Positions 24,890 through 39,039 of a stretch of 64,000 bases of DNA are shown here, in pieces. How positions within the stretch are numbered: the first letter of the stretch is position 1; each line of letters starts with the position of its first letter. The stretch is from Mycolicibacterium aubagnense (GTDB lineage Bacteria; Actinomycetota; Actinomycetes; Mycobacteriales; Mycobacteriaceae), in NCBI RefSeq assembly GCF_010730955.1, contig NZ_AP022577.1:4836001-4900000 (forward strand), written 5' to 3'. Made by a program: the position numbers and the translations under genes. Below the pieces are notes generated by a model that was not told the origin of the DNA, did not search any database, and saw only the letters and a list, made by a program, of their open reading frames with translations.

Positions 24890-26014
24890 TTATGCAGTCG
24901 ACGCCGCCACAGCGGTGGCATCTGGCGCGACTTCCACATCGTCGGAACCGTCAGGCGAGCTTGTTACAGCGCCACCTGAGTCGACTCCGGTGCTCGAGTC
25001 GCTGCTATCGCTGGTTGGTGTGGTTGTGCTGTCGCCGTTGGTGGTTGCGTCAGAGCTGTTCGAGGGGTCGGTGGTGCTCGAGTCGCTGCTATCGCTGGTT
25101 GGTGTGGTTGTGCTGTCGCCGTTGGTGGTTGCGTCAGAGCTGTTCGAGGGGTCGGCGGTGCTCGAGTCGCTGCTGTCGCTGGTTGGTGTGGTTGTGCTGT
25201 CGCCGTTGGTGGTTGCGTCAGAGCTACTCGAGGGGTCGGTGGTACCCGGATCGGTAGTTCCGGTTGACGAGGTGGAGCTGTCACTTGTGCCAGGATCCGT
25301 TGTCGAGTTCGAGCCCGACGCTCCGTCGCTCCCAGACCCGCTGTTGTCACTGTTGCCGGGCGTGCCTGAATCTGACGCCGCGGTCGGCACGCTGTTGGGC
25401 CAGTGCAGCACCGACACATCGAGCTTCTGGGCGGCAACTGCTTGAGCGTTGTTGAACAGAAGGACATCTGCGGTGTTGCGCGGTATGACGCCGGGGTTAC
25501 CGGCGGTGTTGATCTGGCAGTTTTGCGCCGCCGACGCCCAGTCCTGCGCCAGGCACGCCGCCTTGAACTTCGGCCAGGTCGCGGGGAACCCGGCGCCCAG
25601 ACCCCAGGCCATGCTGAGCACCCCGAGCTGGGCGTCTGCAGGCCAGTTCTCGAAGTCCGGGAACGTCCGCTTGAGGATGGCCTGGTTGGCGTTGAGCACG
25701 TTGGCAACCAGTTGGGCGATCGCGTCGTCGGTGAGGTGCAGCGTGGTGAAGGGCGGTGCGGCCGCCTTGTATCCCTTTTGGGCAAGGCTGGCGGTCGTAT
25801 GGACCTTGTTCCACTCGGCCTGGATCTCACTCTGCGAAGCAGCTGAGTTGTCGGAGTTGTGAACAAACGGGAGGGCCGACGCCGCCGCTACAGAGTCAAT
25901 GAGATTGCCGATGCCGACGGTAACCTTCCCGAGGATGTCGAGGTACATGTAGGGCACAGACCCTTCAAAGCGCTTGCTGAACGGAACAAAGGCCTGTTGA
26001 ACGCTCGGTTGCAT
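24890..26014 (-). CDS. GH24 (T4-type) lysozyme with Ser/Thr/Asp repeat tail
   Basis: 374 aa with a very strong AAGGAGG site. Residues 1-205 form a lysozyme-like domain: Glu17 in KRFEGSVPYMYLD, Asp26 and Thr32 have the same spacing (9 and 6) as the catalytic triad of T4 lysozyme (E11, D20, T26), followed by GIGNLI. It should cut the MurNAc-GlcNAc bond of peptidoglycan. Residues about 210-374 are almost only S, T, D, G, N and P and include three 28-residue repeats. There is no signal peptide, transmembrane helix or phage neighbour. It is the last gene of the five-gene leftward cluster, so it may be released by lysis or an unusual secretion route. Confidence 0.8.
   Translation of the reverse strand: MQPSVQQAFVPFSKRFEGSVPYMYLDILGKVTVGIGNLIDSVAAASALPFVHNSDNSAASQSEIQAEWNKVHTTASLAQKGYKAAAPPFTTLHLTDDAIAQLVANVLNANQAILKRTFPDFENWPADAQLGVLSMAWGLGAGFPATWPKFKAACLAQDWASAAQNCQINTAGNPGVIPRNTADVLLFNNAQAVAAQKLDVSVLHWPNSVPTAASDSGTPGNSDNSGSGSDGASGSNSTTDPGTSDSSTSSTGTTDPGTTDPSSSSDATTNGDSTTTPTSDSSDSSTADPSNSSDATTNGDSTTTPTSDSSDSSTTDPSNSSDATTNGDSTTTPTSDSSDSSTGVDSGGAVTSSPDGSDDVEVAPDATAVAASTA
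24996..25247. repeat. Three tandem 84-bp repeats in lysozyme tail
   Basis: Starts at 24996, 25080 and 25164, nearly identical. Each encodes 28 residues (DPSNSSDATTNGDSTTTPTS then DSSDSST plus one variable residue) on the minus strand. Near identity at the DNA level suggests recent expansion by slippage. Confidence 0.9.
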
Positions 26015-26112
26015 TTCTTCCTCCTTATGGTTAGGCGTTGAGAATCAACGGATTTCGATATTCACTTGGCGCCCACGAATGGCGTGTGTCTCGGTAATGC
26101 CGCCGTGAGGCT

Positions 26113-27573
26113 TCAGGACGCCGCTGAATTACCGGTGCCCGAATCAGAGGTGTCGTCGCCAGTGCTGCCCGAGCCGTCGGTATCGCCAGCGCCACCGTCC
26201 GGAGAGGCTGCGGTGCCGTTGCTCGAAGGCGTTGACGGAGTCGAGGTTGTCGGAGCAGGTGGGGGTGCCTGCGCGACGTCCGGTGCATCGGCCGGCGGCA
26301 ACACCGGAAGGTGACTGCACAACAGCGCGATGACCTGCATACCCGGCCGCGAGTATGTCCACGTGCCGTTTGAGTCGGTCGGCGGCAGACCACCCGCGAG
26401 CGAGAACGGGCCGATAAACCCGTTGCCGCTCAGGGCTTCCTGGTCCTGGCCGCTCCATTGCACCGAGATGTTCAGGTTCTTCACCACGACGATGGAGGTG
26501 GGTAGCCCATAGACCAGAGGCGCCTGCCCCTCTGGCGCAGCGACATTCGGGGCGGGCAACAGCCCGCCGCGCGGCATGCCGGGCACACACCAATTCGGAT
26601 CGGCGAGGAACACGCCATCCCAGATCGAAATGCCTGCCGACGTGAACCCGATGGTCGCCGACATGTAGTCGAAAGTCACTGACATGCTCGACGTGGGCGG
26701 AGGGGGCGGGGGTGGGGGCAGCGGGGGTGCGGGAGGCGGCACGGGAAAAGGAAGCGGGCGACGAATCACCCAATCCCTGGCGACGGGACCTTGCCCGCTT
26801 ACCTGTACTGCCTCAGCGGCCAGCGCCGGATTCATCGACAACTTCGGCCTGAGTGAAACTGGTTCAGCGACAGCAACCTTCATCATCGTGGGATTGATCG
26901 TTGCTTCCGGCGTTGCGGTTACCGCGGAGGTTCGGGCCAGCAGGGGGGTGGCCATCGCCGGGCTCACCTCGTGCAGGTATGCCAGGCTCGGGAGTGGAGC
27001 TTGCTGCGCCTCAGCCGGTTTGATCGTCCACAGCGAGGGATTGAGCACCGGCGGAGCGATCGGTACGCGGCCTCCCGTCGAGGTGCCGCCCGCCGGAGTC
27101 GTCGGCGCCGACTGCACCTGGGTGGAGTCGAACACCGACCAATAACTCGTGTTGTCCAACGGCCAGTCATCGGGCACACAAGCCAACTCCGGAGAGACTC
27201 CCGGCGGGCTCAACACCGATTTCGCCATGGCGATTTCGGCGTCGAGTCGCTTCCAGGCGTCGCTGCCCGCCGCCGCTGTCGGTTGCGCAGCGGTGACCGC
27301 CAGACTGTAGATCTGGCTCGCCGAGCCGTAGTACAGATCCTTACCGTTCACCGAGTACTGCGTTGGCGACATCAGGTACGGCGCATCGAAATTCGGCAGC
27401 AGAAATGATGCCAACCGGGTCGGGTTGACCACGCCGTCCTGCACGATGTCGTCTGGCGTCGGCAATGCGAAGGGCAGGAAGACCAGCGAGATGTTCGGGT
27501 TGCCGCTGGCGAAGGCGTTGACGAAAACGTCGGTCACCTTCTGGCCGAGCGTCGCCAGGGTGTCGTCGGCCAC
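26113..27573 (-). CDS. Unknown protein B of low-complexity cluster
   Basis: 486 aa from GTG 27573, five bases after the stop of the upstream gene and with a GGGGAG site inside its end, so the two are coupled. An N-terminal helical region (about 1-130) holds ISLVFLPFALPTPDDIVQDG. A Pro-rich segment (about 275-310) leads into a C-terminal domain (about 315-430) with VTFDYMSATIGFTSAGISIW, GLPTSIVVVKNLNISVQWSG, GPFSLAGG and PGMQVIALLCSHLPVLPP, and then a Thr/Ser/Gly/Asp tail. The block pattern parallels the C-terminal part of the upstream protein, so the two share a domain. I do not recognise the family. No signal peptide. Confidence 0.7.
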   Translation of the reverse strand: MADDTLATLGQKVTDVFVNAFASGNPNISLVFLPFALPTPDDIVQDGVVNPTRLASFLLPNFDAPYLMSPTQYSVNGKDLYYGSASQIYSLAVTAAQPTAAAGSDAWKRLDAEIAMAKSVLSPPGVSPELACVPDDWPLDNTSYWSVFDSTQVQSAPTTPAGGTSTGGRVPIAPPVLNPSLWTIKPAEAQQAPLPSLAYLHEVSPAMATPLLARTSAVTATPEATINPTMMKVAVAEPVSLRPKLSMNPALAAEAVQVSGQGPVARDWVIRRPLPFPVPPPAPPLPPPPPPPPTSSMSVTFDYMSATIGFTSAGISIWDGVFLADPNWCVPGMPRGGLLPAPNVAAPEGQAPLVYGLPTSIVVVKNLNISVQWSGQDQEALSGNGFIGPFSLAGGLPPTDSNGTWTYSRPGMQVIALLCSHLPVLPPADAPDVAQAPPPAPTTSTPSTPSSNGTAASPDGGAGDTDGSGSTGDDTSDSGTGNSAAS

Positions 27574-27578
27574 GGTGC

Positions 27579-29372
27579 TCAGCTCCCCGGTGCCGCTGCG
27601 GCTCCCACAGCTGCTGCCGCGGCCGGCGCGGCACCACCTGCCATCGCCTGTGGCGAGTTGGTCGAGTTCTGCTTGGGTAGCGTCGGGTCGTCCATCAGCG
27701 GGGCTGCAGGCTGTATCTGGCCGATCCAGCCGGCGATCTGGGAACCCAGCAGCTGCAGTGTTCCGCCCTTCTTGCCGTCGGAGGTGAAGGTGAATCCCGA
27801 TGATGTCTGCTGCGACCCGAATGCGCCCGAGGACTGCTGATCCTGGTGCTGCGCTGAGGCGTTGGCGACGCAGAACATATAGCTGGCGGACACGGCGACC
27901 TGATTGGAGCTGGATTGTCCGGAGCTCTGGGCGGCCTGGTTCGCCTTGTTGAAGGCGTCCCCGAAATCGCCCCAGTCGTCGCAGGTGATGTTGACGTTCC
28001 GGATGATCAGGAACGCTTTGGGGACCATCGGCAAGAGAGCGGGGGTCTTGTCGCCGATCTGGTTGGCGACAGTGCCGTCGCTGATGCAGTTCGCCCGTTG
28101 TTTGACCATGTACCAACCCTTGATGTTGAACAGGTCACCCAGGAACCACGGCCGCTCGATGGTCGCGACGAAGTACTCGAACTGCACACTGGCCGAGCTC
28201 GAATTGTCTTCGTGGCTCGTCCAGTTGTACTGGTTCGCGTGACTGCCGGACGCGTTGTTCGCGTCGCTGTGGCTATCGGTCGTCGATGCGCCGAACCAGC
28301 CGATGTTGAACCCGCCGCTGCCGCTGTTGGACTGCGACTGCTGGTGTTGCCAATTGTCGGCGAACGAACCCGCGGCCGTGCCCGTCGTGGCGTCGTGGTG
28401 CTGGCTCGTGCCCGTGATCTTCTGCACGCCAAAGGAATCGTCGGCGTAGTCCCACCACGACGACGGGCTGATGTAGGACCACGGGACATTGGCCGAGATG
28501 CCGCCGGCCAGCTGGACCTGATAGGCGCCGTACATTTGTTTCGCCATCGCCGCCAGAGCGGTGACCGCGCCCTCGCCTTCGGTTGCGATGATGTCGAGAG
28601 CGTCTTGCACCTGCTGGCGACCCATGCTGTTGAAGTCGTTGAGTGCCGCAGTGACCTTGCTGGCGTAGCTTTCCGCCACGATCGGCCAGGACTGACCGGC
28701 GACCGGGTCGGCCATCGCCTGCGCATAAGCCTGGGCCTGTGCAGCGATGGCGTCGGTCCACGCCTGCTGATTGCGCCGGAACTGCGCGTACAGCGGCGTG
28801 TATCCGATGAAGTTGCCGTTCGAGTCCTTCAAGTAGAGCAGGTTCTGCGCTGCCGCAACGCGATTGAGCACGTCTTGCGCCGGCGGCGACTGATCAATGG
28901 GCTGCATGCCGGTGATGATCGTGTAGTACTCGACGCTCACGTCTCGATCGGGCCAGGCCGTCGCCACTCCGTTCTGCGTAACCTCCAGCATGTGATCGAC
29001 CAGTTGTGACGTGTTGAACGCCGCGTTTATCGACGCCTCCATTTGCGGATCGGGCGCCGCCGGCGGCGGGTACACCGATCCGGGCGGTCCCGCGGCCGGA
29101 GTCGACGAACTGGCCTGGGCAGGTGCGTTGAACGTGCCGTCATCGCCGAAGCTGGCCGCCGAATCCCCGCCGCCAGGCGTCCACGCGTGGGCGTAGTCCT
29201 TCGGATCGATCGGGTAGCCGGTCATCTGGTGCATATAGACGGCGGTGCCGAGCGGCTTGCCGTCGGGGCCGATTTGGCTTGAGGCAACCTGGTTTTCGAT
29301 CTGGTTCAGGGCATCAAGCAGGGCTTTGGTGATGCAGCCGACGTTGCCGATCTGCTGTACTCCGGAGGTCAT
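27579..29372 (-). CDS. Unknown protein A of low-complexity cluster
   Basis: 597 aa with a GAGGAG site. Residues 1-60 are a short folded head (GCITKALLDALNQIENQVASS), then a Pro/Ala linker. Residues about 115-300 are helical and hydrophilic. From about 390 comes a strand-rich domain with VQFEYFVATIERPWFLGDLF, GWYMVKQ, ALLPMVPKAFLIIRNVNITC, a Gln/Ser-rich insert, and GSQIAGWIGQIQPAAPLMDDP; two tandem GSGG/Ser-Asn runs interrupt it. The same order of blocks appears in the downstream protein. The family is unknown to me; a surface-binding or pore-associated role is a guess. Ends in an Ala-rich tail, no signal peptide. Confidence 0.7.
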   Translation of the reverse strand: MTSGVQQIGNVGCITKALLDALNQIENQVASSQIGPDGKPLGTAVYMHQMTGYPIDPKDYAHAWTPGGGDSAASFGDDGTFNAPAQASSSTPAAGPPGSVYPPPAAPDPQMEASINAAFNTSQLVDHMLEVTQNGVATAWPDRDVSVEYYTIITGMQPIDQSPPAQDVLNRVAAAQNLLYLKDSNGNFIGYTPLYAQFRRNQQAWTDAIAAQAQAYAQAMADPVAGQSWPIVAESYASKVTAALNDFNSMGRQQVQDALDIIATEGEGAVTALAAMAKQMYGAYQVQLAGGISANVPWSYISPSSWWDYADDSFGVQKITGTSQHHDATTGTAAGSFADNWQHQQSQSNSGSGGFNIGWFGASTTDSHSDANNASGSHANQYNWTSHEDNSSSASVQFEYFVATIERPWFLGDLFNIKGWYMVKQRANCISDGTVANQIGDKTPALLPMVPKAFLIIRNVNITCDDWGDFGDAFNKANQAAQSSGQSSSNQVAVSASYMFCVANASAQHQDQQSSGAFGSQQTSSGFTFTSDGKKGGTLQLLGSQIAGWIGQIQPAAPLMDDPTLPKQNSTNSPQAMAGGAAPAAAAAVGAAAAPGS

Positions 29373-29543
29373 GGGGTGCTCCTCATCTTGTGTGGTCTTG
29401 TGTGGTGTCGGTTTCTCAACCCGGCACTCCCGTCCGGGAGCACTCAGGTAGGTATGTGTTCAATTGCGTTGGGCGTCAGTGCTGATCGATGTGGTTCAGC
29501 CGCTGAGTATCGAAGTGTCGCTACCGGCGCGGCCGGCGGCGGG

Positions 29544-30743
29544 TTAGGACGTGGGCAGGCCCACTTTGGTGCAGTCGAACCAACCCCACAGCGTCCGGGC
29601 GTCATTCGTGAATTTCGTGCCCGAGATGGTGCGGGAGGTCAGGCGGCACGTCGTGCCGTCGGGAGCGCCGCCACCTTCAGCCGTCTGCCAACTCCCATCG
29701 GAGTTCTGACTGACGAAGATCCCTGTGTGGCCGTCGTTACTGGTCTGGCTGGAGGCGAGGTAGAAGTAGTCCCCTGGGTTCGGTTTCGCGCCGGCGGAGG
29801 CCTTCACAAAAGCGGGGCTCGCCAAGCTGACGTTGCCGAGGCTGACGAACATTCCGGTTCCCGGTTTGTACGGACCGACCGCGGGCGCGCCGCACCATTC
29901 TCTGACGGCACGAACGAACATGGCGCAGCTGGTTTTCACACCGGTCAGCGCCTGGGCGGCCTGTTGGGTCTTCTCCTGGTTGCAGGCTATGAAGTCGCGG
30001 TAGAAGTCGCTTCGCTGCGTCTGGCCCATCGGTCCGGCGCTCAGAGCCTGATTGCAGCACCGCACAATTCGGGCTCCTACAGATTCGCCGGGGTTGGATT
30101 TGAAGGTGAACAAGGTGGCGATGTAGTTGCCCGAAGTCGACGGCTGGCTTCCCGAACCGCCGGTGCTCGAACCGGACTTGCCTGAGCCCGAACCTGTGCC
30201 GGGACCCGAACTCGAACTCGAACTCGAGCCCGAACCTGTGCCGGGACCCGAACTCGAACTCGAACTCGAGCCCGAACCTGTGCCGGGACCCGAAGTCGAA
30301 CCTGAGCCGGAACCAGAGTCGGTACCACTTGGGTCGGTGCCACCAGTAGAGCCGTCAGTGCCACCTTGGTCGCTGCTGCTGCCCGGGCCGGCGTTGTCGG
30401 TGGGGTCGGCACCGCCTGGGTCGGTGCCGCCGGTGGAGTTGTCGGTGCTGTCGCTTGGATCCGCGCTGCCGCTGGGGTTCTCAGTGCTGCCCGAATCGGT
30501 GCCACCTGAGTCGGTGCTGCTGCTGGGGTCGGTACCGGTTGAGTCGGTGCCGCCGCTGGGGCTGTCTGCGCCGCCGCCCTGGTCGGAGCCGGCACTGGGG
30601 TCTTCGGTGCTGTTGCTCGGATCTGTGCCGCTGCTCGAGCTGTCGGTGCCACTCGGTTCCGTGCCCGTAGTTGGGTCGGTGCCATCCGAGCCGCTGGTAT
30701 CTGCGGCAGTCGTGTCGACGGTGTCGGTATCTGTGTCGGTCAC
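29544..30743 (-). CDS. CHAP/NlpC-like cysteine peptidase with long low-complexity head
   Basis: 399 aa from GTG 30743, GAGGTGA site. Residues 1-205 are nearly pure T, D, S, G, P and E, with two 14-residue repeats. The folded part (about 206-399) looks like a papain-fold amidase: Cys273 in TSCAMFVRAVREWCG and His339 in NDGHTGIFVSQNSDG, with PGDYFYLASS between them, the order C...PGD...GH of CHAP/NlpC-P60 enzymes. Those cut peptidoglycan stems. It has no signal peptide. The same cluster holds a GH24 lysozyme, so the cluster carries both a glycan and a peptide hydrolase. Confidence 0.7.
   Translation of the reverse strand: MTDTDTDTVDTTAADTSGSDGTDPTTGTEPSGTDSSSSGTDPSNSTEDPSAGSDQGGGADSPSGGTDSTGTDPSSSTDSGGTDSGSTENPSGSADPSDSTDNSTGGTDPGGADPTDNAGPGSSSDQGGTDGSTGGTDPSGTDSGSGSGSTSGPGTGSGSSSSSSSGPGTGSGSSSSSSSGPGTGSGSGKSGSSTGGSGSQPSTSGNYIATLFTFKSNPGESVGARIVRCCNQALSAGPMGQTQRSDFYRDFIACNQEKTQQAAQALTGVKTSCAMFVRAVREWCGAPAVGPYKPGTGMFVSLGNVSLASPAFVKASAGAKPNPGDYFYLASSQTSNDGHTGIFVSQNSDGSWQTAEGGGAPDGTTCRLTSRTISGTKFTNDARTLWGWFDCTKVGLPTS
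30196..30279. repeat. Tandem 42-bp repeats in CHAP-like gene
   Basis: Two exact 42-base units plus a partial third, starting at 30196, 30238 and 30280. On the minus strand they encode a 14-residue unit made of SGPGTGSG plus a Ser run, inside the low-complexity head. Confidence 0.85.
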
Positions 30744-31480
30744 TTTAAATCACCTCGTTGTCAAAGGATTTCGACGGTCAACCAATTGGGCATCCACGGC
30801 GACGTCTGGTGCAACGGCCCGGTCCGATGAGCGGACCGGGCCGCAGGCATCCGGGTCCTGTTTGCGAAACGCAACCGGCGACGCGGCCGGCCGGCATCCG
30901 GTTGGGATATCAAAAATGGGGTGGTGGGTCCGCTCAACGGACCGAGGTCTTGCTTGAGATCCGCCAAGTGAGTTGTGATTCATGCATATTCGGGCTCACC
31001 CGATTCATCCGTCTGGTCACGAGAGTCATTGGGAGACAACATGTCAAGGCGGATTGATTCCGACCGGGCCGCTGCTGCTCGCGAGACAATCGGACGAGGA
31101 TGTTTTGAAAGATCCCCGCGTGGATGTGTGCAGTCCCGTTTGTCGAGACGCAACGAAGATTGACCTGTAGGCGTTCTAGCCTACCGAGATGGACGGCCGC
31201 TGGGGGCTGGGCAGCCAGGCAATTCCAACGCTCTCCACAGGTCAGGCGACGGGTCGAAGTTCAAATCCGGAAATGGTGAAAGCATTTGCGCCGGAGAAGA
31301 ATTGGACCCGTGACCGGCAACCTGATACGAGGGGCTGCACTGTCCATCCGTGCTGCCCGCGCCGAGATCCGCTCGATGGTCCATCGGTCATGCTCGCGGT
31401 TGTCGTAGGTGCGCCGGCCGCAGCTCAAGGTGTGTCGCGGAGCCGAGCCCGTGTGTCGTGATCACCCGGTCGGCCTCCAC
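30744..31480. other. Gap with a strong hairpin, no supported gene
   Basis: 737 bases between the CHAP-like start and the end of the Thr-rich gene. CGGCCCGGTCC (30815-30825) and GGACCGGGCCG (30833-30843) form an 11-bp hairpin 72 bases upstream of the CHAP-like start, which could be a leader structure or a terminator for the upstream Thr-rich gene. No open frame in this gap shows a credible protein. Confidence 0.6.
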
Positions 31481-32425
31481 TCACACTGCGTGTTCGAAGG
31501 GGTTGTTGTCGGCCCCGGGCCCACCGCTATCCCCGTCGCCGGCCCCGGCCCCAGACCCGGACCCTTCGCCCTCGCCTTCGCCGGACCCTTCGCCTTCGCC
31601 CTCGCCGGACCCTTCGCCAGACCCTTCGCCCTCGCCCTCGCCGGACCCTTCGCCTGTGCCGTCCCCACTGCCTGACCCGTCGCCGTCCCCATCGCCACCC
31701 CCGCCGCTATCGATATCGGCGGGTGTGACGGGACCGCGCGGGCCGTAAGTGCCTGAATCGTCGGTCGGTTCGCCATCGGTGGAGGCGTCGTTGCCCTCCC
31801 CGTCATCGGTTTCTTGGGTGGGGTCGTCCGTGGTGTGACCGTCAGTGGGTGCCGATGTGGTTGGTTTGGGCTCCCAACTCCCGTCGCGAGCCATCCATAC
31901 CGTCTGATCGGTCGAGTCGGTCAGTTTGCCGTTTTCGTCGTACTCGTCAGTGTGCTGACGCGCGTCGTTAACGCCGCCAGCGGCGTCGGACCAGACCGTC
32001 GTAACCGCCCTGATCGTTCCGCCCGGATATGTCGTGGTTACCGTCTCGGTGTTGGTGTCGGTCTCCGGGTCCCAGATCGTCTGCCCCTGCTCCGTCGTCG
32101 ATGGGCCGTCGGCCGGGGTCAAGGTGGTCGTCCAGTTCGAGGTATGGGCGTATTGCTCCAGCACCGTGTGGCTACTCGAATCAATCGTGACGGTGGTGTC
32201 TTTCGATTCAATATGTTTGGTGCTGTCAGTGGTTGTTGTCGTTACACCGCGCCCGGATGTCTCGTGCACGATGTCGGTATCCGTCACCGTGGAACCGTTT
32301 TTGTATTGGATCCGAGTACTGGTCTGCACACCGCCGTCGGGCAGGTAGGTGATCTGCCGCTGCGCGCCGATGATGGCGTGATCAGGATCCGGCACTTGGA
32401 TCGGCTGCCATGCGTTGCCGCTCAT
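31481..32425 (-). CDS. Thr-rich repeat protein with Gly/Glu/Ser tail
   Basis: 314 aa with an AAGGA site. Residues 1-200 are an alternating Thr/Asp/Ser-rich sequence of short strands (TTTTDSTKHIESKDTTVTI, WTTTLTPADGPSTTEQG, TETVTTTYPGGTIRAVTTVW) that looks like a beta-solenoid or RHS-like repeat region. Residues about 200-300 are acidic low complexity with many GSGEGEGE units. No signal peptide or catalytic motif. First gene of the leftward low-complexity cluster. The strongly acidic, Gly-rich tail recalls RTX-like or adhesive regions, but no GGxGxDxxx calcium-binding repeats are present. Confidence 0.65.
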   Translation of the reverse strand: MSGNAWQPIQVPDPDHAIIGAQRQITYLPDGGVQTSTRIQYKNGSTVTDTDIVHETSGRGVTTTTTDSTKHIESKDTTVTIDSSSHTVLEQYAHTSNWTTTLTPADGPSTTEQGQTIWDPETDTNTETVTTTYPGGTIRAVTTVWSDAAGGVNDARQHTDEYDENGKLTDSTDQTVWMARDGSWEPKPTTSAPTDGHTTDDPTQETDDGEGNDASTDGEPTDDSGTYGPRGPVTPADIDSGGGGDGDGDGSGSGDGTGEGSGEGEGEGSGEGSGEGEGEGSGEGEGEGSGSGAGAGDGDSGGPGADNNPFEHAV

Positions 32426-33365
32426 GAGCGGTCCTTCAGGATGCCCGCCGACAGATGAATATGCGCCGATATTGGTTCACGCATGCCGAAGCCCCTTGCA
32501 TCGTGGCGATACCGTGAATGTACATCTATGTGCGGGAAGACGGAGTTTCGTACAAGCGAATTGACAGGAAAGTCAACGTGGTCTCACCCCGATCGCCTGT
32601 CATGCATTTCAGTGCGCCGCATGCGATGCCCTTTCGCCGCGAGGCCAAATGCATCCACGCTGCGGATTGATCCTGCGAGGGCGGTGAGCAAGCCAAGGTC
32701 GGTGTACTGCCGCGGCACACCGTCGCGCTCCTGATCACCCGGATCTTCGAGCGCGGCCTCTGCCCGGCTCTCTCGCGCAGCAGGATTGCGACGAGGACGG
32801 AGCTCATGCCCGGGATCGCGTCGCGGCTGACGCATTCGTAGCCATGCGCGCTCAGGGACGCAGGCGTAGCAGCCATCCAATTCCGTTGCCGCACTATTCA
32901 ATTAGTCCGCAACACCGTCGTGTTAGACGCAATGTTCATCGCTGTACCCCGACAATTGGCCCGTCGCCGACGGCGCCGCCGTACTCCGCTTCGGGCGGAC
33001 CGACCTTAAGTGTGAGGGGGCGAGATCACCGGGCAGCGCATGACTCGCATACCAGCCGCCGATCTCCTCGTTCGGCGTACGTTGACCTGCGCGTTTGCGA
33101 CGAAGATTAACCAGCTCTCGCGACACGCCCGAATCTTGTCAAAGTAGCCAGGCGTGTCTTGTCAATCTGCGCGGCATCTCGACATCGTCGTCATCGAGAT
33201 GCCGCCGGCCGCGTGATCTTCTGGGGTTCCTTGCGGTCAGTTGGCGGCTCATAATCATCAGATACCGGGTTTGATCTGCGCCTCAAGAATTCGCCAAGAC
33301 ATCTGAAGCACCCTCTATCCAGCCCAGCCCACGACGGGCTGACGACACCGAAGGGAATCAATGAG
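32426..33365. other. Long non-coding gap between divergent clusters
   Basis: 940 bases between the leftward low-complexity cluster and the rightward peptide-export cluster. Open frames in it are short, differ in style from the neighbours and have no ribosome site. The right part holds the hairpin at 33171-33205 and must hold the promoter for the peptide genes. Confidence 0.6.
33171..33205. terminator. Strong hairpin upstream of peptide genes
   Basis: GCGGCATCTCGA and TCGAGATGCCGC form a 12-bp perfect stem with an 11-base loop, about 160 bases before the first peptide start. It is preceded by TCTTGTCAATCTGCG, which also precedes the hairpin at 53665. It may insulate the two clusters or be a regulatory leader. 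Confidence 0.5.
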
Positions 33366-33545
33366 ATGAGCGGCAACGAACAACAACAGCAGACGGCAGC
33401 CGACGCGAGCAACGATCGCACGAATCAGGGCGACAGTATTGGGGATCTGGCGCCCAGCCACGAGGAGTCGGTCGGCGTGAAGGGTGGGGGGCTACAAGTG
33501 GGCACGTGGCATGGCAGCGGCGGCGGCGCCGGAAAGGGCCAGTAG
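33366..33545 (+). CDS. Double-glycine leader peptide 1 (secreted peptide precursor)
   Basis: 59 aa, ATG 33366 with GAAGGG 10 bases upstream. The N-terminal leader is hydrophilic and Gln/Asn/Asp-rich and contains IGDLAPSHEESVGVKGG (25-41), which parallels the second peptide's IEDLAPADADAVKGG. Cleavage after the Gly-Gly pair by the downstream C39 peptidase would release an 18-residue Gly-rich core starting GLQVGTWHGSGGG and ending KGQ. The core has no Cys, so a modified or linear peptide is expected. Role (bacteriocin, signal or other) is inferred from the system, not shown. It lies 49 bases before the second precursor. Confidence 0.75.
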   Translation: MSGNEQQQQTAADASNDRTNQGDSIGDLAPSHEESVGVKGGGLQVGTWHGSGGGAGKGQ

Positions 33546-33594
33546 CTGCTGTCGGTGCAGCCAGTCCGGAATGTTAGCGAAAGGAATCAAGGAA

Positions 33595-33741
33595 ATGATG
33601 TCCAGCTCTGAGAGCGATCCGTCGGCGACAGCCGCTGAGGTCGACACAATCGAAGATTTGGCGCCGGCCGATGCGGATGCGGTGAAGGGCGGATTCAATC
33701 CGCAACCTGAACCACCGGGAAAGCCTGCGTCGCACCAATAG
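33595..33741 (+). CDS. Double-glycine leader peptide 2 with FNPQPEPPG core
   Basis: 48 aa from ATG 33595 (or the adjoining ATG 33598), with AAAGGA and AAGGA sites. Leader IEDLAPADADAVKGG (19-33) ends in Gly-Gly and is very close in pattern to peptide 1. The predicted 15-residue core FNPQPEPPGKPASHQ is Pro-rich. Small peptides with a VKGG-FNPQPxPPG junction occur in many unrelated bacteria, so this is a recurring type rather than a local oddity. The bases before both peptide genes are alike (GAA-GGAATCAA-GA then ATGA), suggesting duplication. It is followed by a hairpin and then the cyclase gene. Confidence 0.85.
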   Translation: MMSSSESDPSATAAEVDTIEDLAPADADAVKGGFNPQPEPPGKPASHQ

Positions 33742-33768
33742 ATGTAAAGGGTCCGGGTATTTGATTCA

Positions 33769-33803
33769 GCGGCCACCGCTCGCGGGTGCCCGGCGGTGGC
33801 CGC
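33769..33803. terminator. Hairpin between peptide genes and cyclase
   Basis: GCGGCCACCGC and GCGGTGGCCGC form an 11-bp stem with a 13-base loop, 27 bases after the second peptide stop. As a partial terminator it would make the peptide transcripts more abundant than the export genes. Confidence 0.6.
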
Positions 33804-33883
33804 CTGACCGGGGGTCTCAGTTCACGGAAACTGCCAGCTTGCTGTGGAGAACATGTGTTGCTGGCTCGACCCGCCCAGGAACT

Positions 33884-33899
33884 CTAGATTTAATCGGTG
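33884..33899 (+). promoter_or_regulatory. Possible -10 element and leaderless start for cyclase gene
   Basis: TAGATT at 33885-33890 lies 6 bases before the GTG at 33897, a spacing compatible with a leaderless transcript starting at the GTG. No clear -35 is present, and no ribosome site precedes the GTG. Confidence 0.3.
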
Positions 33900-34910
33900 T
33901 CCGATGCGCCCGTCGAGGGACCACTGGGATACCTCGACGTATCGGCGCCGGGCGTCCCGCAGCGGAGGGTGCCGATTTTCGGTCAGCTCTTCGTGGGCCG
34001 CGAGTGTGCAGGGATCACGCCGGCGCGGCGGATGGTGGTCGATGATCCTCAGATTTCTCGCAACCATCTAGAGGTCCGCCTTGATGCCGAGACGACGCGG
34101 GCGTTTGTCATCGACACCAGCACAAACGGGACGCGGATCAACGGGATGCGGCTCGAGCGCGCGGTGCCCATGCCGATCAAGTCCGGCGACGTCATTTGTT
34201 TGGGCGATCTGACCCTGAGGTTCGATTCCGCCCGGTTTACCGGGTCGAGCTATGCCGACCCGGGCCTGACGCGTGCGCGGATCGACCTCACTCCGATGGT
34301 CATGGTGGTCGGGGACATCGTGAACTACTCCACCCTCTCGGAGGTCACCGACCCGGCGGTGATCGCGTCGGGCCTGAACGTGCTGTGGGGTGATCTCAGT
34401 GCCATCCTCCGCGCGCATCGCGGCACGCTGAACCACTACGCCGGGGACGCCCTGTATGCGGTGTGGGAGCCGAGCGCCGTGCCTGATGCGGTGGCGTTGG
34501 CGATCACGTTCGCGCTGGTCGCCAACGAGCGCGTCGGCGTCCTGGGCCCCGCGCTGCCGTTGCGCAATCCGGACGGATCACCGATCCAAATGGGTTGGGC
34601 GATCGTGCAGGGGGAAGCCGCGTTGTCCGCGATGACCCGCTCCGTCGAGGCGGTGATCGGCGATTCCACCAACGTCGCATTTCGGCTGTCGGGACTGGCC
34701 GGGCGCGACGGGCGCGCGGCGGTGATGGTGACGGCCGCAGTTCAACATGCGGTCCGCGACAGATTCGCTTGGGGCCCACCCGAGCAGCTTCTGCTCAAGG
34801 GGCGGCAGGGTTTGGAGACCGTTTATCCCGTCCTCGCGGCTGCCGCTGCGCAGCAACCGACACCCACAGATGGCGCCACGTCCCGTCGTACCGACCCATC
34901 CCCGCGATGA
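33897..34910 (+). CDS. FHA domain-class III nucleotidyl cyclase fusion
   Basis: 337 aa from GTG 33897. An FHA phosphothreonine-binding domain (about 20-105) is seen in LFVGRECAG, DDPQISRNHLEV, and STNGTRINGM. A class III adenylate/guanylate cyclase domain follows (about 135-315): first metal Asp in VVGDIVNYSTL, second in HYAGDALYAVW, and the transition-state pair in VIGDSTNVAFRLSGLAG (Asn and Arg present). The usual purine-specifying Lys three residues before the GD is replaced by His, so nucleotide choice (ATP or GTP) is unclear. The product is expected to bind the two CNB domains of the transporter two genes downstream. Stop overlaps the next ATG (ATGA). Confidence 0.85.
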   Translation: MSDAPVEGPLGYLDVSAPGVPQRRVPIFGQLFVGRECAGITPARRMVVDDPQISRNHLEVRLDAETTRAFVIDTSTNGTRINGMRLERAVPMPIKSGDVICLGDLTLRFDSARFTGSSYADPGLTRARIDLTPMVMVVGDIVNYSTLSEVTDPAVIASGLNVLWGDLSAILRAHRGTLNHYAGDALYAVWEPSAVPDAVALAITFALVANERVGVLGPALPLRNPDGSPIQMGWAIVQGEAALSAMTRSVEAVIGDSTNVAFRLSGLAGRDGRAAVMVTAAVQHAVRDRFAWGPPEQLLLKGRQGLETVYPVLAAAAAQQPTPTDGATSRRTDPSPR

Positions 34911-35851
34911 CCACGCCGGGCGGTGCAGCTGATACGACGGTGTTCAGCGCCGCCGGTCACCCGTTCACGTGGCTGCAGGTGATCGATGCTGCGCGGGTGC
35001 GGGGCCAGTGGCAGGCGCTCGAGCGCCGGGTCGCCGGGCTACTTGCTCGGGAGGCCGACCTCACAGCCACCGACTCACTGCCGACCGCGGATGCGACGAA
35101 AGCGGCCGCTACCGCTTGGCGATATCGGCACAGACTGCTCAGCGCCGATGAACTCGTGGAGTGGCTCGCCCGCTACGGCGTCACCGTGCCGGAATGGATG
35201 GCGGAGATGCGCCGCTCACTGACCGATCCCGCCGAGGGGCTCACGCAGGCGTCGGACAATGAACTCGACCGGGCCTGCTGGGTGCACGCAGTGTGCTCGG
35301 GCGTGCTGGCCGAATATGCGCGGACGCTGGCCGAAGAGGTCGCCGTGGCGCTGGCCGAACGGCCGGGCGCTACGCCGTGGGACGATCTGGCCGCGCTGCC
35401 GGGCGCCCGTGAGCGCTTCTGTACGGCCCAATTGCGTGAGCCGCTATTGGCTGCCGAGGTCCACACCAACAGGGTTGGGTGGACCAGCCTCGAACTACAG
35501 ATGCTGATCCACCCCGACGAGGCGGTGATGCGCGAAGCGGCGATGTGTATCTCTGTGGACGGGCGTGACCTGGGTGATGTCGCCGCAGATGCCGGCGCGG
35601 AGCTGCAGACGGTCTGCCTGCTGCTCGACGACGCCGACCCGGCGCTGCGCACCCGGCTGCTGGCGGCCGACCCTGGTGAGCTCGTCGGGCCGTTGTCCAC
35701 CGGAGCAGATCATTGCGTCGCGGTGGTCCTGAAACGGTGCACCCCAAGCCTGGACGATCCCGCGGTGCGCCGCCGCGCCGCAGCCACCGTGCTCCATCGC
35801 GCCCTGTCCGCTGAGGTCAACCGACATGTCCACTGGCATGAGCATCTCTGA
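34907..35851 (+). CDS. PpiC-like peptide maturation protein
   Basis: 314 aa; the ATG overlaps the cyclase stop. An N-terminal helical region (about 1-180) is like a SurA/trigger-factor-type substrate-binding head: ELVEWLARYGVTVPEWMAEMRRSL. The C-terminal part (about 215-310) has the parvulin-like pattern seen in the putative 'peptide maturation system' proteins: LQMLIHPDEAVMREAAMCISVDGRDLGDVA, then LLAADPGELVGPLSTGADHCVAVVLKRC, then ALSAEVNRHVHWHEHL. The known parvulin active-site residues cannot be traced with certainty, so it may bind rather than isomerise. In this operon it is expected to hold the two precursor peptides for export. Cytosolic, no signal peptide. Confidence 0.65.
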   Translation: MTTPGGAADTTVFSAAGHPFTWLQVIDAARVRGQWQALERRVAGLLAREADLTATDSLPTADATKAAATAWRYRHRLLSADELVEWLARYGVTVPEWMAEMRRSLTDPAEGLTQASDNELDRACWVHAVCSGVLAEYARTLAEEVAVALAERPGATPWDDLAALPGARERFCTAQLREPLLAAEVHTNRVGWTSLELQMLIHPDEAVMREAAMCISVDGRDLGDVAADAGAELQTVCLLLDDADPALRTRLLAADPGELVGPLSTGADHCVAVVLKRCTPSLDDPAVRRRAAATVLHRALSAEVNRHVHWHEHL

Positions 35852-38800
35852 GCCGCCGGCTCCTGGCGTACCGGGGGAGCGGCACCGCTTCGCGCTGCTC
35901 GAACTGATGCCCGCGGACGTGCGGCGCTTGGTGGAGGCCTCGTTCCATCGTGAGTCGTATTCGTTCGGCGAGGTGATCGTCGCCGAGGGCGACGCAGCGG
36001 ACGCCATGTACATGCTCGAGTCGGGCACCGCACGTGTCATCAAGACCGGCGATCAGGGTGAGGAGGTCCCGCTCAACGTGCTGCACGCCGGCGACGCGTT
36101 CGGCGAGCGGGCGTTGCTCGCACCCGGCGGCACCCGCACCGCGACCGTACGCGCGTCCGGCGCGGTGGTGGCGCTGCGGCTCGACAAGGCGGTGTTCGAC
36201 GCGCTGGTGTTCAGCGAGCCTGCCATCGCCCATTACCTCGACCTGCACGTGCGTCGCCACGAGCTGCGCGACTTCCTGCGCGCCTACACGGCCTTTTCGG
36301 GTCTTCCCGCCGAGGGCATGCGACTGCTGCTCGAGGGCCTGACACCGATGACTGTGCCCGCCGGGCACATCGTGATCCGCCAAGGCGACCCGCCCGGGCC
36401 GATGTACATCGTGCGCGCCGGCCGGCTGCGTGCGTACTTCGAAACCAACGCCGCGCGGGAACAGCGCGCCTACCTACGCCAGGGTGATTTCTTCGGCGAG
36501 GTGGCGCTGCTGCGCGGCTCCACGCGCACGGCAACCGTCGAGGCAGTGACCGACGCCGATTTATGGACGCTGCCCCCAGCGGTTTTCGTCCGCCTCTCCG
36601 CGGAGTTCCCGGCGTTCCGCAAGGAGATCGAGCAACGCATCTCGTCCTACGACTACCTGCGTACGGCGCGGGTGCCGCTCGATTTCGCCGAGGAGCTGTT
36701 ACCCGCACAAGCCGGACCCGACGCGCTGGCCGCGGACCAGACCCGCACCGCCACAGCTGAATTCCCGCAAGCCGACGTTCAAACCAACGGCGGCGACGAA
36801 CAGCTCGACGGGTCCATCAGTTCGCGGCGGCGCATCCGCCGATTTCCGTCTGTGTTGCAGGTCGACGAAATGGACTGCGGCGCAGCATCTCTGGCCAGTG
36901 TTTGCCACTACTACGGGCGCAACGTCTCAATCACCCGGGTGCGTGAAGCGGTCCATACCGCCATCGACGGTACGAGCCTGCTGGGTATCGCGCGGGGCGC
37001 AGAGGCGCTGGGGCTGGCGGCGCGCACCGCCAAGGTGTCCAAGACGCGCTTGGACGAGATGCCGCTGCCGGCCATCGTGCACTGGGATGCCAACCACTGG
37101 CTGGTCCTGTATGACGTTGGCGCGGAGCATGTTCGATTGGCCGACCCCGCCCGAGGCCGCCGCAAGGTCAAACGCTCGGAGTTCGAGTCGAAGTGGTCGG
37201 GCTTCGCAGCGTTCTTCACCCCGACCGACGCATTCGCGCAGACCCCGCAGGCGACCTCGCGCGTCGGCTGGCTGGTCGAGTTCTTCCGGCCGTATCGCCG
37301 CGTCTTGGTCTTGGCGCTCGTGCTGGCCCTGCTGGCCGCCGGTGCCGACATGCTCATCCCGGTGTTGAGCAAGTACATCGTCGACGGGGTGATCCAATAT
37401 CACGACGCAAGCCTGCTGACACTTCTGGTGGCGGGCATGTTCGGTGCGCTGGTGCTCAGCGTCGCGGTAACGCTGGCGCAGCGATACTTCCTCAGCCGCA
37501 TCGCGGTGCGCATCGATCGAGCGAGCCTGGACACGCTGTCGGAAAGACTGCTCGCCTTGCCGATGAGCTACTTCAACGCGCGCCGCACCGGGGACATCTC
37601 GCGGCGCCTGAACGGCTTGCGACAGGTGCGCACATTCATCGTCGAGCACGGAGTCGCGGGCCTGGCTTCGGCCGCCCAACTGCTCGTAGCGGTGATCATC
37701 ATGTTCGTCTACAGCTGGCGGCTCGCGCTGGTGTATCTGGCGACCGCTCCGCTGTACGGGGGGCTGATGTGGTTCTCCCGCAACCGTCTTCGCCCGGCGT
37801 TCGATGTGCTGGAGGAGTCGTGGGGTAAGTACCAGTCACGCCAGATCGATTCCATCAAAGGCATCGAGACGGTCAAGGCGATGGGCGCCGAAGAATCGCT
37901 TCGCCGGCTGCTGCTCGGGCAGTTCAACGGCCTTTCCTCACAGCTGTACCGGGCCGACCTGACGGTGATGACCTATCAGGCGCTCGTTCAAGTCGTCACG
38001 TTCCTGTCTCTGGTGCTGTTCTTGTGGATCGGCGCCCTGCAAGTCATGCGCGGCCACCTCACGATCGGCGAGCTGGTCTCCTTCAACGCCCTTGTGTTGC
38101 TGGCCAATGGTCCGGTCCTGGGCCTGCTGTGGCTGTGGGACCAGCTGCAGTATTCGACCATCCTTCTCGACCGACTCAACGACATCCTCGAACAAGAACC
38201 CGAGCAGGGCGAGGATCACTCGTCGCTGACACCGGTGCCGACGCTGTCAGGTCGAGTTCGGTTCGCGCGGGTGACATTCGAGTACCCCGGCCCAGCCACG
38301 ACGCCGATACTCGACGAGATCGACTTCGAGGTCGAACCGGGTACTCGGGTGGCCATCGTCGGGCGCAGCGGCTCCGGTAAGACCACACTGGTCAAATGCC
38401 TGTCCGGGCTGCTGTTGCCCACCGCCGGGACGATCCTGTTCGACGGGGCGGATCTGACTGGGCTGCATTTGCGCCAACTGCGCCGCCATATCGGGTTCGT
38501 ACTGCAGGACAACCACATGTTCGACGCGTCGATCGCCGAGAACATCGCGCTCGGCGACGAGGACGCGGACTCCGAGCGGATCATATGGGCGGCGCGGGTG
38601 GCCAATGCCGCCGAGTTCATCGAGCGCCTGCCGCTGGGCTACGAAACCAAGATCGGCGAGAGCGGGATGCTGCTGTCCGGTGGCCAGCGCCAGCGGATAG
38701 CGATCGCGCGGGCCGTCTACCCGCGGCCGCCGGTGCTGGTCTTCGATGAGGCCACCAGCGCACTGGACACCGAATCCGAGCGCGCGGTCAAAGAAAACCT

Positions 38801-38981
38801 CGACGAGCTCCTCGAAGGACGCACGTCCTTCGTGATCGCCCATCGGCTATCCACCGTCCGCGACGCCGACGTGATCCTGGTACTGGAGAAGGGCCGGCTG
38901 GTCGAGCGCGGTACGCACGACGAACTCATGGCCAGACAGGGTCTGTACTACTACCTGTGCAGTCAGCAACTGGCACTGTGA
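35826..38981 (+). CDS. Cyclic-nucleotide-gated C39 peptidase/ABC exporter (PCAT)
   Basis: 1051 aa from ATG 35826 (GAGG site 9 bases upstream), overlapping the previous gene by 26 bases. Two cyclic-nucleotide-binding domains come first, each with a phosphate-binding cassette: FGERALLAPGGTRTATV (Phe92) and FGEVALLRGSTRTATV (Phe223). A C39 peptidase follows (about 335-470) with Cys351 in MDCGAAS, His424 in ANHWLVLYD and Asp440 in LADPARG. Then six ABC transmembrane helices (about 485-760) and the ATPase: Walker A GRSGSGKTT, LSGGQRQR signature, Walker B VLVFDEATSALD, and AHRLST. It should cut double-glycine leaders and export the cores, with nucleotide binding as a switch. No HlyD-type partner is near, as expected for this envelope. 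Confidence 0.95.
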   Translation: MSTGMSISEPPAPGVPGERHRFALLELMPADVRRLVEASFHRESYSFGEVIVAEGDAADAMYMLESGTARVIKTGDQGEEVPLNVLHAGDAFGERALLAPGGTRTATVRASGAVVALRLDKAVFDALVFSEPAIAHYLDLHVRRHELRDFLRAYTAFSGLPAEGMRLLLEGLTPMTVPAGHIVIRQGDPPGPMYIVRAGRLRAYFETNAAREQRAYLRQGDFFGEVALLRGSTRTATVEAVTDADLWTLPPAVFVRLSAEFPAFRKEIEQRISSYDYLRTARVPLDFAEELLPAQAGPDALAADQTRTATAEFPQADVQTNGGDEQLDGSISSRRRIRRFPSVLQVDEMDCGAASLASVCHYYGRNVSITRVREAVHTAIDGTSLLGIARGAEALGLAARTAKVSKTRLDEMPLPAIVHWDANHWLVLYDVGAEHVRLADPARGRRKVKRSEFESKWSGFAAFFTPTDAFAQTPQATSRVGWLVEFFRPYRRVLVLALVLALLAAGADMLIPVLSKYIVDGVIQYHDASLLTLLVAGMFGALVLSVAVTLAQRYFLSRIAVRIDRASLDTLSERLLALPMSYFNARRTGDISRRLNGLRQVRTFIVEHGVAGLASAAQLLVAVIIMFVYSWRLALVYLATAPLYGGLMWFSRNRLRPAFDVLEESWGKYQSRQIDSIKGIETVKAMGAEESLRRLLLGQFNGLSSQLYRADLTVMTYQALVQVVTFLSLVLFLWIGALQVMRGHLTIGELVSFNALVLLANGPVLGLLWLWDQLQYSTILLDRLNDILEQEPEQGEDHSSLTPVPTLSGRVRFARVTFEYPGPATTPILDEIDFEVEPGTRVAIVGRSGSGKTTLVKCLSGLLLPTAGTILFDGADLTGLHLRQLRRHIGFVLQDNHMFDASIAENIALGDEDADSERIIWAARVANAAEFIERLPLGYETKIGESGMLLSGGQRQRIAIARAVYPRPPVLVFDEATSALDTESERAVKENLDELLEGRTSFVIAHRLSTVRDADVILVLEKGRLVERGTHDELMARQGLYYYLCSQQLAL

Positions 38982-39039
38982 CGCCGAGGCGGCACTTTTG
39001 TGGCTGGCAGGCGTGGCATTGGACCGACCTAGGCATGTC

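Follow-up and report, generated by a model that had tools for sequence, protein, structure and literature searches.

Gene organization of the locus

The window, a stretch of 64,000 nucleotides of Mycolicibacterium aubagnense DNA, carries between positions 33366 and 38981 five genes on the plus strand: two peptide genes (pep1 and pep2), a gene for an FHA-class III cyclase, a parvulin-like gene and a gene for a CNB-CNB-C39-ABC exporter (Table 1). All the gene parts named in a preliminary description of this DNA were found where it had placed them, and both gene overlaps that it had reported (Table 1) are right. Its proposal of a single operon holds at most for the cyclase, parvulin-like and exporter genes. 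Since pep2 is inverted in the relatives Mycolicibacterium sp. CBMA 234 and CBMA 226 (loci L001 and L002), the peptide genes and the cyclase do not form a fixed operon.

Table 1. Features of the peptide, cyclase and exporter locus (positions in the window).
Feature	Position	Strand	Basis
pep1 upstream region, putative promoter/RBS	33219..33365	+	blastn blocks shared with relatives
pep1, double-glycine precursor, 59 aa; leader of 41 aa with VKGG at its end; core predicted as GLQVGTWHGSGGGAGKGQ	33366..33545	+	translation, orthologues
pep2, double-glycine precursor, 48 aa; leader of 33 aa with VKGG at its end; core predicted as FNPQPEPPGKPASHQ	33595..33741	+	translation, orthologues
GC-rich stem-loop in the pep2-cyclase gap (ends approximate)	33766..33808	+	folding energy
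FHA-class III nucleotidyl cyclase, GTG start; FHA ~33993-34205, cyclase ~34281-34841	33897..34910	+	Pfam, profile, model
Parvulin/SurA-PrsA-like protein; ATGA overlap with cyclase, 26-base overlap with exporter	34907..35851	+	profile, model
Exporter of the peptidase-containing ABC type; two CNB domains at its N-terminus	35826..38981	+	Pfam, alignment, tree
CNB domain 1, with an intact phosphate-binding cassette GDAFGERALLAPGGTRTATV	35952..36209	+	Pfam, alignment
CNB domain 2 (approximate limits), with an intact cassette GDFFGEVALLRGSTRTATV	36354..36611	+	Pfam, alignment
C39 peptidase domain, Cys/His/Asp present	36843..37229	+	Pfam, alignment
ABC membrane and ATPase domains with Walker A and signature motifs	37305..38759	+	Pfam, alignment

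The DNA upstream of pep1 is kept in CBMA 226 (from 33219) and CBMA 234 (from 33257) according to blastn, and a promoter scan of this region found no sigma-70 consensus. The stem-loop between pep2 and the cyclase gene may possibly act as a terminator or attenuator. The 89-base stretch that contains it folds at -40.1 kcal/mol (z -1.45), a value equalled or bettered by 18 of 200 shuffled sequences and hence not exceptional, and the element falls outside the DNA common to the window and the two relatives.

The FHA-cyclase

The cyclase gene product has an FHA domain (PF00498, E 5.8e-14). Its cyclase domain scored 12.9 bits against PF00211, under the gathering cut-off of 21.9, while that domain is annotated in some homologues in a precomputed list. 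The assignment to class III made in the preliminary description was nonetheless borne out by profile comparison with solved cyclases (best 1.5e-7) and by the predicted model (pLDDT 82.7), which has a class III fold and for which class III cyclases made up nearly all of the 50 PDB matches listed.

Conservation was judged in an alignment of 121 related rows (the best 120 of 904 matches plus the window, the top match, P0053, being the window protein itself), with the register taken from the comparison with solved cyclases. The class III metal Asp pair and the transition-state Asn and Arg (D140, D184, N259 and R263) are invariant in all 121 rows. The Arg, Ser, His and Asn-Gly positions of an FHA phosphothreonine site are likewise kept in 119 to 121 of the 121 rows listed: S54, R55 and H57 in 121, N77 in 120 and R35 in 119. 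The base-reading positions follow neither known pattern, Lys/Asp(Thr) of adenylyl cyclases or Glu/Cys of guanylyl cyclases, but are His and Ala: in this alignment H180 is His in 113 rows, Tyr in 5, Asn in 3 and never Lys, and A252 is Ala in 116. The earlier naming of cAMP or cGMP as the signal therefore did not survive: neither nucleotide can be assumed, and a cAMP/cGMP system was rejected because the residues back no particular base. Because of the same His/Ala pair, it is also possible that cyclase activity is low.

Sensing of a phosphoprotein, also proposed earlier, is plausible from the nearly invariant FHA site, but in none of the five exporter loci examined was a Ser/Thr kinase gene found in the 6 kb around the cyclase gene. 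Across the FHA-cyclase family kinase genes are close by in at least 12 of 25 loci, against 4.8% expected (11 from the neighbourhood comparison and one, G094, among the matches listed). An STPK-FHA relay at the window locus was rejected, since this family-wide enrichment contrasts with 0/5 at exporter loci.

The exporter and the parvulin-like protein

All domains ascribed to the exporter (two CNB domains, C39, ABC membrane and ABC ATPase) are far over their Pfam cut-offs. Both CNB cassettes keep the Gly, Glu and Arg and resemble the CNB domains of PKG and PKA. A C39 domain with its Cys/His/Asp intact is fused to the ABC membrane and ATPase domains, and peptides with double-glycine leaders are encoded nearby, as expected of a PCAT. 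The best NCBIfam match was NHLM_micro_ABC1 (TIGR03796), at 565.2 bits and thus below the curated equivalog cut-off of 853.3. The placing of CNB domains at the N-terminus, ahead of C39, is that of HetC, as judged from its description, with two CNB domains here.

A homologue search returned 32 loci, among which L001-L009 match through the CNB and C39 regions; L010-L032, matched in the CNB part only, were left out of the comparison. In the exporter tree, the six sequences from mycobacteria group together as a single clade (support 100/100). In the non-mycobacterial exporters the first CNB cassette is intact in 9/9 and the second in 8/9, the exception, L117, being without the Arg. The exporter N-terminus gave no match against plasmids.

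A Pfam search of the parvulin-like protein gave no match, rotamase included, and among the 12 members of its alignment rotamase was matched weakly in five (best 0.0039). A profile of the protein and 11 relatives reached SurA at 7e-5. The predicted model (pLDDT 93) had PrsA and SurA as top matches at E 7e-5 to 1e-3, with query TM-scores of only 0.21-0.33. Of the PpiC-like maturation protein proposed earlier there remains only a remote parvulin-fold match with a putative function; the role of maturase is likewise putative.

The pep1 and pep2 peptides

As claimed earlier, the two tiny genes encode matching leaders, both finishing in VKGG, and both short frames are kept in CBMA 234 and CBMA 226. 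The pep1 orthologues (L001, 6163-6327; L002, 6798-6971; both plus strand) have a nearly identical core. Differences fall at third codon positions in 39/70 cases against CBMA 234 (p 1e-4) and 33/65 against CBMA 226 (p 0.003), in both above one third. Judged from these comparisons, the pep1 and pep2 frames are more than chance. An FNPQPEPP-like motif occurs twice in the database relatives of pep2 (P0002 and P0003), and a tblastn search of pep2 against plasmids gave no match.

A VKGG profile run against 198 genomes of the genus recovered only the exporter-linked peptides used to build it (G000 and G149) and nothing further below E 0.007. In the genomes of loci L003 and L004 its best E was 6.3 in one, with no match in the other, and with G341 included only E above 1.9 was seen. 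One VKGG peptide that the profile had missed was picked up beside the exporter of G341 by searching for the motif. Candidates with a GG leader were found near 12 of the 15 exporter loci compared, the window counted among them; as the patterns differed between searches and there was no shuffled control, single matches such as that at L009 may be due to chance. No candidate was found at the remaining three: L005, where the contig breaks off within the exporter gene, L003 (M. gastri) and L004 (M. ostraviense). In the exporters of the latter two the catalytic DCGA reads EAGG, so that the C39 cysteine is lost, and this loss coincides with the absence of a peptide. Both loci retain the cyclase although the peptidase is dead. 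The peptide cores are completely different between lineages. The link drawn earlier between peptides and exporter fits these data, in which two of the three exceptions are without the C39 cysteine, and pep1 and pep2 are likely substrates of the adjoining exporter.

Association of the cyclase with CNB effectors

The FHA-cyclase gene adjoins the exporter gene in 6/6 mycobacterial loci, whereas tblastn found no homologue near the non-mycobacterial exporters (0/9, four of them on contigs under 10 kb; Fisher p 2e-4). The refuting condition set with the earlier proposal, related exporters without an adjacent cyclase, thus gave a split result, the two genes being neighbours in mycobacteria and not outside them. 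A single clade of exporter-linked cyclases was rejected (AU p 0.0015), with lineage pairs for the AU tests picked after the tree had been seen and the all-exporter test following the partner label. The cyclase gene lies upstream of the exporter in one locus type and downstream in the other. By this phylogenetic evidence, the cyclase-exporter pairing arose at least twice.

The family was also followed through 25 loci in 25 genomes of the genus, 23 among the 198 sampled genomes plus G218 and G341, which were known beforehand. A CNB gene lies within 3 kb in 18 of these loci, against about 1% expected by density. Among 115 other class III cyclases (FHA-cyclases excluded) in seven of those genomes, chosen once the CNB neighbours of the FHA-cyclases were known, there were nine such cases (Fisher p 6e-11). 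Because the 25 loci are mutually related, the binomial and Fisher figures overstate independence. Where the exporter is missing, the cyclase adjoins other CNB effectors, namely patatin, MFS-patatin and glutaminase proteins (typed by Pfam for representatives and by phmmer with pieces of these for the remainder); such unrelated effectors were found in 13 further genomes. In G076 the MFS-CNB-patatin gene is spread across several frames. The seven loci with no neighbouring CNB gene include G094 (contig edge, with a patatin piece only) and G005 (short contig). The recurrent pairing strengthens the earlier tie between this cyclase family and the CNB exporter; a cyclase specific to the exporter was rejected, 20/25 loci being without one.

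A possible nucleotide-controlled secretion module

The gene set, intact residues at the catalytic, phosphate-binding and FHA sites, leader-core peptides kept between genomes and the repeated pairing of this cyclase family with CNB effectors are observations. We consider it rather probable (about 0.58), from sequence evidence, that the locus as a whole works as a module for peptide secretion under nucleotide control. In this reading the exporter would take hold of the VKGG leaders of the pep1 and pep2 precursors, its C39 domain would cleave after the double glycine, and the cores would then be secreted. The FHA domain would dock on a phosphothreonine protein and couple the activity or location of the cyclase to Ser/Thr kinase signalling. 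The cyclase would produce a 3',5'-cyclic nucleotide, its base left unspecified, which would occupy the tandem CNB domains and gate processing or transport, and the probable task of the parvulin-like protein is to hold or chaperone either the peptides or the exporter. Gating and its direction, phospho-docking, cleavage, and which ligand with which base is used are the parts that we infer. This rare mycobacterial gene set suggests that peptide secretion may be switched by an internal nucleotide signal. More tentatively, and with considerable doubt, the FHA-cyclase may be a portable unit that converts threonine phosphorylation into a cyclic nucleotide of unusual base beside varied CNB effectors, the kinase-cyclase relay here gating leader cleavage and secretion. 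The effectors in this wider reading are the peptide exporter, a patatin lipase, an MFS-lipase and a glutaminase.

The ligand of the exporter need not come from its neighbour, because the non-mycobacterial exporters have intact CNB cassettes and no cyclase homologue nearby. A global signal might instead control the CNB domains, either cAMP from another cyclase (a further 11 matches to class III cyclases were counted in the genome at E up to 1e-5) or ppGpp, which the CNB domain of HetC is reported to bind (PMC10986499); the neighbouring cyclase would then serve other targets or simply co-travel. We think this rather unlikely, as mere co-travel would not predict that the family was recruited beside the exporter at least twice or that it stands next to unrelated CNB effectors elsewhere. 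An improbable alternative has a weak or inactive cyclase serving as a phospho-dependent scaffold whose FHA domain brings the exporter to a phosphorylated partner, with the CNB domains sensing something else. The His/Ala pair and the Pfam score under the cut-off would suit it, but a pure scaffold would not need the metal and transition-state residues kept in 121/121 rows, and the cyclase pairs specifically with CNB proteins.

It is very improbable that the FHA-cyclase and CNB effector form an anti-phage cassette of Pycsar-like design in which the effector (patatin, transporter or exporter) can be swapped. The layout, the patatin effectors at many loci and the non-canonical base pocket recall such systems, and there are weak PADLOC matches to PycC (1.4e-4 for the window cyclase, 7e-9 for P0114) and a match of the exporter CNB part to PycTIR models (9.5e-18), of a kind also to be expected from any ordinary cyclase or CNB domain. 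However, V138, H180 and A182 fit neither EaPycC (F100, R142, Q144) nor BcPycC (Y50, D94, R97), as given in PMC11224242, no TIR domain was found in the proteins scanned by Pfam, and it is hard to see what role the export of peptides would play in abortive defence. Finally, the differing cores and the failure to find such a peptide in L003 and L004 might mean that pep1 and pep2 are not substrates and that their leader shape and conservation are coincidental. This is hardly credible given leaders and cores conserved in three genomes with a third-position bias, a profile that recovers exporter-linked peptides only, and the loss of C39 together with the peptide.

If the secretion module is real, it would offer a direct example of how the nucleotide of a co-encoded cyclase gates a C39 peptide exporter, with phosphothreonine, cyclic nucleotide and secreted peptide brought together as three layers of signalling in five genes. 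The sister lineage with intact CNB domains, a dead peptidase and no peptide found provides a natural control. For CNB proteins of mycobacteria, CNB-patatin and MFS-CNB-patatin among them, the wider pattern suggests where the ligand might come from, in a form that can be tested.

Comparison with known systems

A literature search over titles and the starts of abstracts, with subscription papers largely outside its scope, found no description of this gene set. The exporter matches NHLM_micro_ABC1, an NHLP bacteriocin exporter, from C39 to the ATPase, whereas its CNB domains lie outside the match and its precursors are short GG peptides. With the solved enzymes Cya2, CyaC, Rv1625c and the bacterial adenylyl cyclase 5o5k the window cyclase has in common the fold and the metal and transition-state residues; it differs in its fused FHA domain and its His/Ala base-reading pair. 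Mycobacteria also have pairs of the Rv2435c-Rv2434c type, in which a class III cyclase adjoins a CNB-bearing gene, and the nine neighbours counted by proximity among the 115 other cyclases may be of this sort. To our knowledge no peptide export is associated with such pairs.

Pycsar likewise has a cyclase beside a CNB effector and a non-ATP base pocket, but the window locus has other specificity residues, other effectors and added peptides. Membership was rejected, since the pyrimidine-reading residues given in PMC11224242 are not those of the window cyclase.

The nearest characterised CNB-PCAT is HetC of Nostoc PCC 7120, likened here by description, in which an N-terminal CNB is also fused to C39 and an ABC exporter. 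According to PMC10986499, its CNB domain bound ppGpp and not cAMP in vitro and was needed in vivo, its C39 peptidase was active, and it is described with one CNB domain and with neither a known substrate nor a double-glycine peptide gene nearby. Unlike HetC, the exporter described here has two CNB domains, and next to its gene are genes for peptides and an FHA-cyclase, together with one for a parvulin-like protein, so that the locus supplies candidate substrates for a CNB-PCAT, which are missing for HetC.

The gene set and its conservation

All five genes of the preliminary description were found, namely those of two double-glycine precursors (pep1 and pep2), an FHA-class III cyclase, a parvulin-like protein and a CNB-CNB-C39-ABC exporter, together with the gene overlaps it had reported (ATGA between the cyclase and parvulin-like genes, 26 bases between the latter and the exporter gene). 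In Pfam searches, the cyclase protein gave an FHA match (5.8e-14) and a cyclase domain below the cut-off, while the exporter contained two CNB domains, a C39 domain, an ABC membrane domain and an ABC ATPase. According to the exporter search, the closest named relatives are Mycolicibacterium sp. CBMA 234 and CBMA 226. The DNA common with both is restricted to one stretch (75-87% identity, see table), and no blastn match at E values up to 1e-5 was found beyond it in the 21 kb compared per relative. The five-gene set is kept as a unit in surroundings that differ.

Of 396 genus genomes, 5 had the parvulin-like gene. The CNB2-C39 part of the exporter was likewise present in 5 of 396 phylum genomes, one of them that of the window. 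For the FHA-cyclase, 23 of 198 genus genomes were positive; the same threshold gave one of 198 phylum genomes, again that of the window. The gene set is real, conserved and rare.

Features located in this analysis
Feature	Position	Strand	Remark
Window	G000:C1:4836001-4900000		host genome of 6.3 Mb
Five-gene set	window 33366-38981	+	
DNA common with CBMA 226 and CBMA 234	window ~33219-38989		
Run of five frames	window 24890-32425	-	Ser/Thr/Gly-rich low-complexity stretches
VKGG peptide	L087 12648-12848		mycobacterial exporter genome G341
Radical SAM/B12-binding protein and carbamoyltransferase	L003 1433-5626		M. gastri
Ser/Thr kinase with TPR repeats	L006 40-2559		upstream of the Gemmatimonadota parvulin-exporter pair
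Protein kinase-NB-ARC fusion	L077 6366-9428		genome G105, immediately beside the FHA-cyclase
Class III cyclase with CNB	G143:C1:3637325		CNB at 3635985

Among the five frames in a run in the window, two overlap and one start may be wrong. Four had no Pfam match and one had a CHAP match below the cut-off; their products may be a set of proteins that are secreted or lyse the cell wall.

Precursor peptides

Orthologues of pep1 and pep2 occur in both relatives, with cores almost unaltered (GLQVGTWHGSGGGAGKGQ; FNPQPEPPGKP...). Including extra ones in the same places, the relatives' loci L001 and L002 have four and three peptides with the VKGG leader end, respectively. Third-codon-position differences amounted to 39 of 70 against CBMA 234 and 33 of 65 against CBMA 226, both more than one third. 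The pep2 orthologues lie on the opposite strand in both relatives, so that co-transcription of pep2 with the cyclase is not conserved.

A VKGG profile of 11 peptides, run on the 198 genus genomes, gave five matches below E 1e-7, in the window's genome and G149, all of them rows of the profile itself, and nothing further below 0.007. The third exporter genome of this sample (G074), which is peptidase-dead, had no match. An FNPQPEPP-like motif is present twice in each of two database relatives of pep2. The VKGG peptide of G341 ends in SDLRLKQDI, a sequence that may resemble the first residues of phage tail-spike chaperone domains.

Candidate GG-leader peptides were found near 12 of the 15 exporter loci compared, loci of Gemmatimonadota and Verrucomicrobiota included. 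In one of the three loci lacking a candidate (L005), the contig ends within the exporter; in the other two (M. gastri and M. ostraviense), the C39 active site reads EAGG, not DCGA. Loss of the peptidase Cys and absence of peptides coincide. Peptides that serve as the exporter's substrates would be expected to show this pattern, although these two loci belong to one lineage and count as one event. In M. gastri, the radical SAM/B12-binding protein and carbamoyltransferase are encoded at a distance of a few kb from the exporter with the dead peptidase.

In two other actinobacteria (L115 in G716, L116 in G759), the same CNB2-C39 exporter is accompanied by a full LanB-type lantibiotic dehydratase. 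Short GG peptides number about 8 in the first and about 12 in the second, many of them Thr-rich with a Cys. These are probably lanthipeptide-like clusters.

The cyclase and its association with the exporter

The window cyclase matches solved class III cyclases by profile, and its predicted model matches class III by fold. Residues were compared in 121 rows, made up of the window protein and the best 120 of 904 matches, of which the first is again the window protein. D140, D184, N259, R263 and K301 are invariant in all rows, and the FHA phosphosite residues almost so. Adenylyl cyclases read the base with a Lys/Asp(Thr) pair, guanylyl cyclases with Glu/Cys. Here, in the register set by profile alignments to solved cyclases, these positions are His (113/121, never Lys) and Ala (116/121). 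The cyclase is probably active, with a base-reading pair of neither the ATP nor the GTP type. The base-specificity residues of the Pycsar cyclase PycC, as far as PMC11224242 gives them, are not matched either.

Mycobacterial exporters form one clade in the tree, and their cyclases do not. Grouping all exporter-linked cyclases was rejected (AU p 0.0015), as were the pairs of the M. gastri type with the window type (0.0035) and with G341 (0.015); the pair of the window type and G341 was not rejected (0.22). The cyclase precedes the exporter in G341 and the window type; in the M. gastri type, it lies downstream. Both the trees and this placement indicate that the FHA-cyclase family became linked to this exporter on two or more occasions.

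Outside mycobacteria, none of nine exporter loci had an FHA-cyclase homologue. A parvulin-like homologue occurs in six (L005, L006, L008, L009, L116 and L117), L115 has a fragment at the contig end, and tblastn found none in L007 and L114. An HlyD-like protein then follows in all three loci scanned for it (L006, L007 and L008), and a sigma-54 activator is present in two of two (L006 and L007).

CNB effectors and kinases near FHA-cyclases

Twenty-five FHA-cyclase loci were compared, 23 from the genus sample plus G218 and G341. A CNB gene adjoins the cyclase, directly or across the parvulin-like gene, in 18, against about 1% expected by density (229 CNB domains in 142.6 Mb). The partner is this exporter in five, a CNB-patatin in seven, an MFS-CNB-patatin in one and a glutaminase-CNB in one; the remaining four have a CNB-patatin on one side and an MFS-CNB-patatin on the other. 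Among the seven loci without a CNB neighbour, a kinase adjoins in four (G005, G006, G045 and G105), G094 is a cut contig, and G015 and G134 have neither adjacent. Among the 115 other class III cyclases found in seven of these genomes, 9 lie within 3 kb of a CNB; the pairing is therefore not unique to the FHA-cyclase family, only far commoner there. These nine pairs, of which that of G143 is an example, are each spaced by about 1.1 kb and are perhaps of the Rv2435c-Rv2434c type.

Of the 25 FHA-cyclases, 12 have a protein kinase within 6 kb, against 4.8% expected, but none of those in the five exporter loci does. In loci without the exporter (L071-L086 and L089), where the cyclases adjoin the CNB-patatin, MFS-CNB-patatin and glutaminase-CNB genes, a Ser/Thr kinase is often close.

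Proposed mechanism and comparison with known systems

Most likely, kinase state, read through the FHA domain, would set cyclase activity; the cyclase product would occupy CNB1 and CNB2; and the exporter with its CNBs filled would cut the peptides and then export them. Beyond the anatomy, we infer all of these steps. Since the cyclase is a common part of several CNB-effector loci, the locus is more interesting than a lone operon. Every part has known relatives (CNB-PCAT, class III cyclase). The nearest tested one is HetC of Nostoc PCC 7120, which has a CNB before C39 in common with the window exporter. As described in PMC10986499, this CNB can be essential and can bind a ligand other than cAMP.
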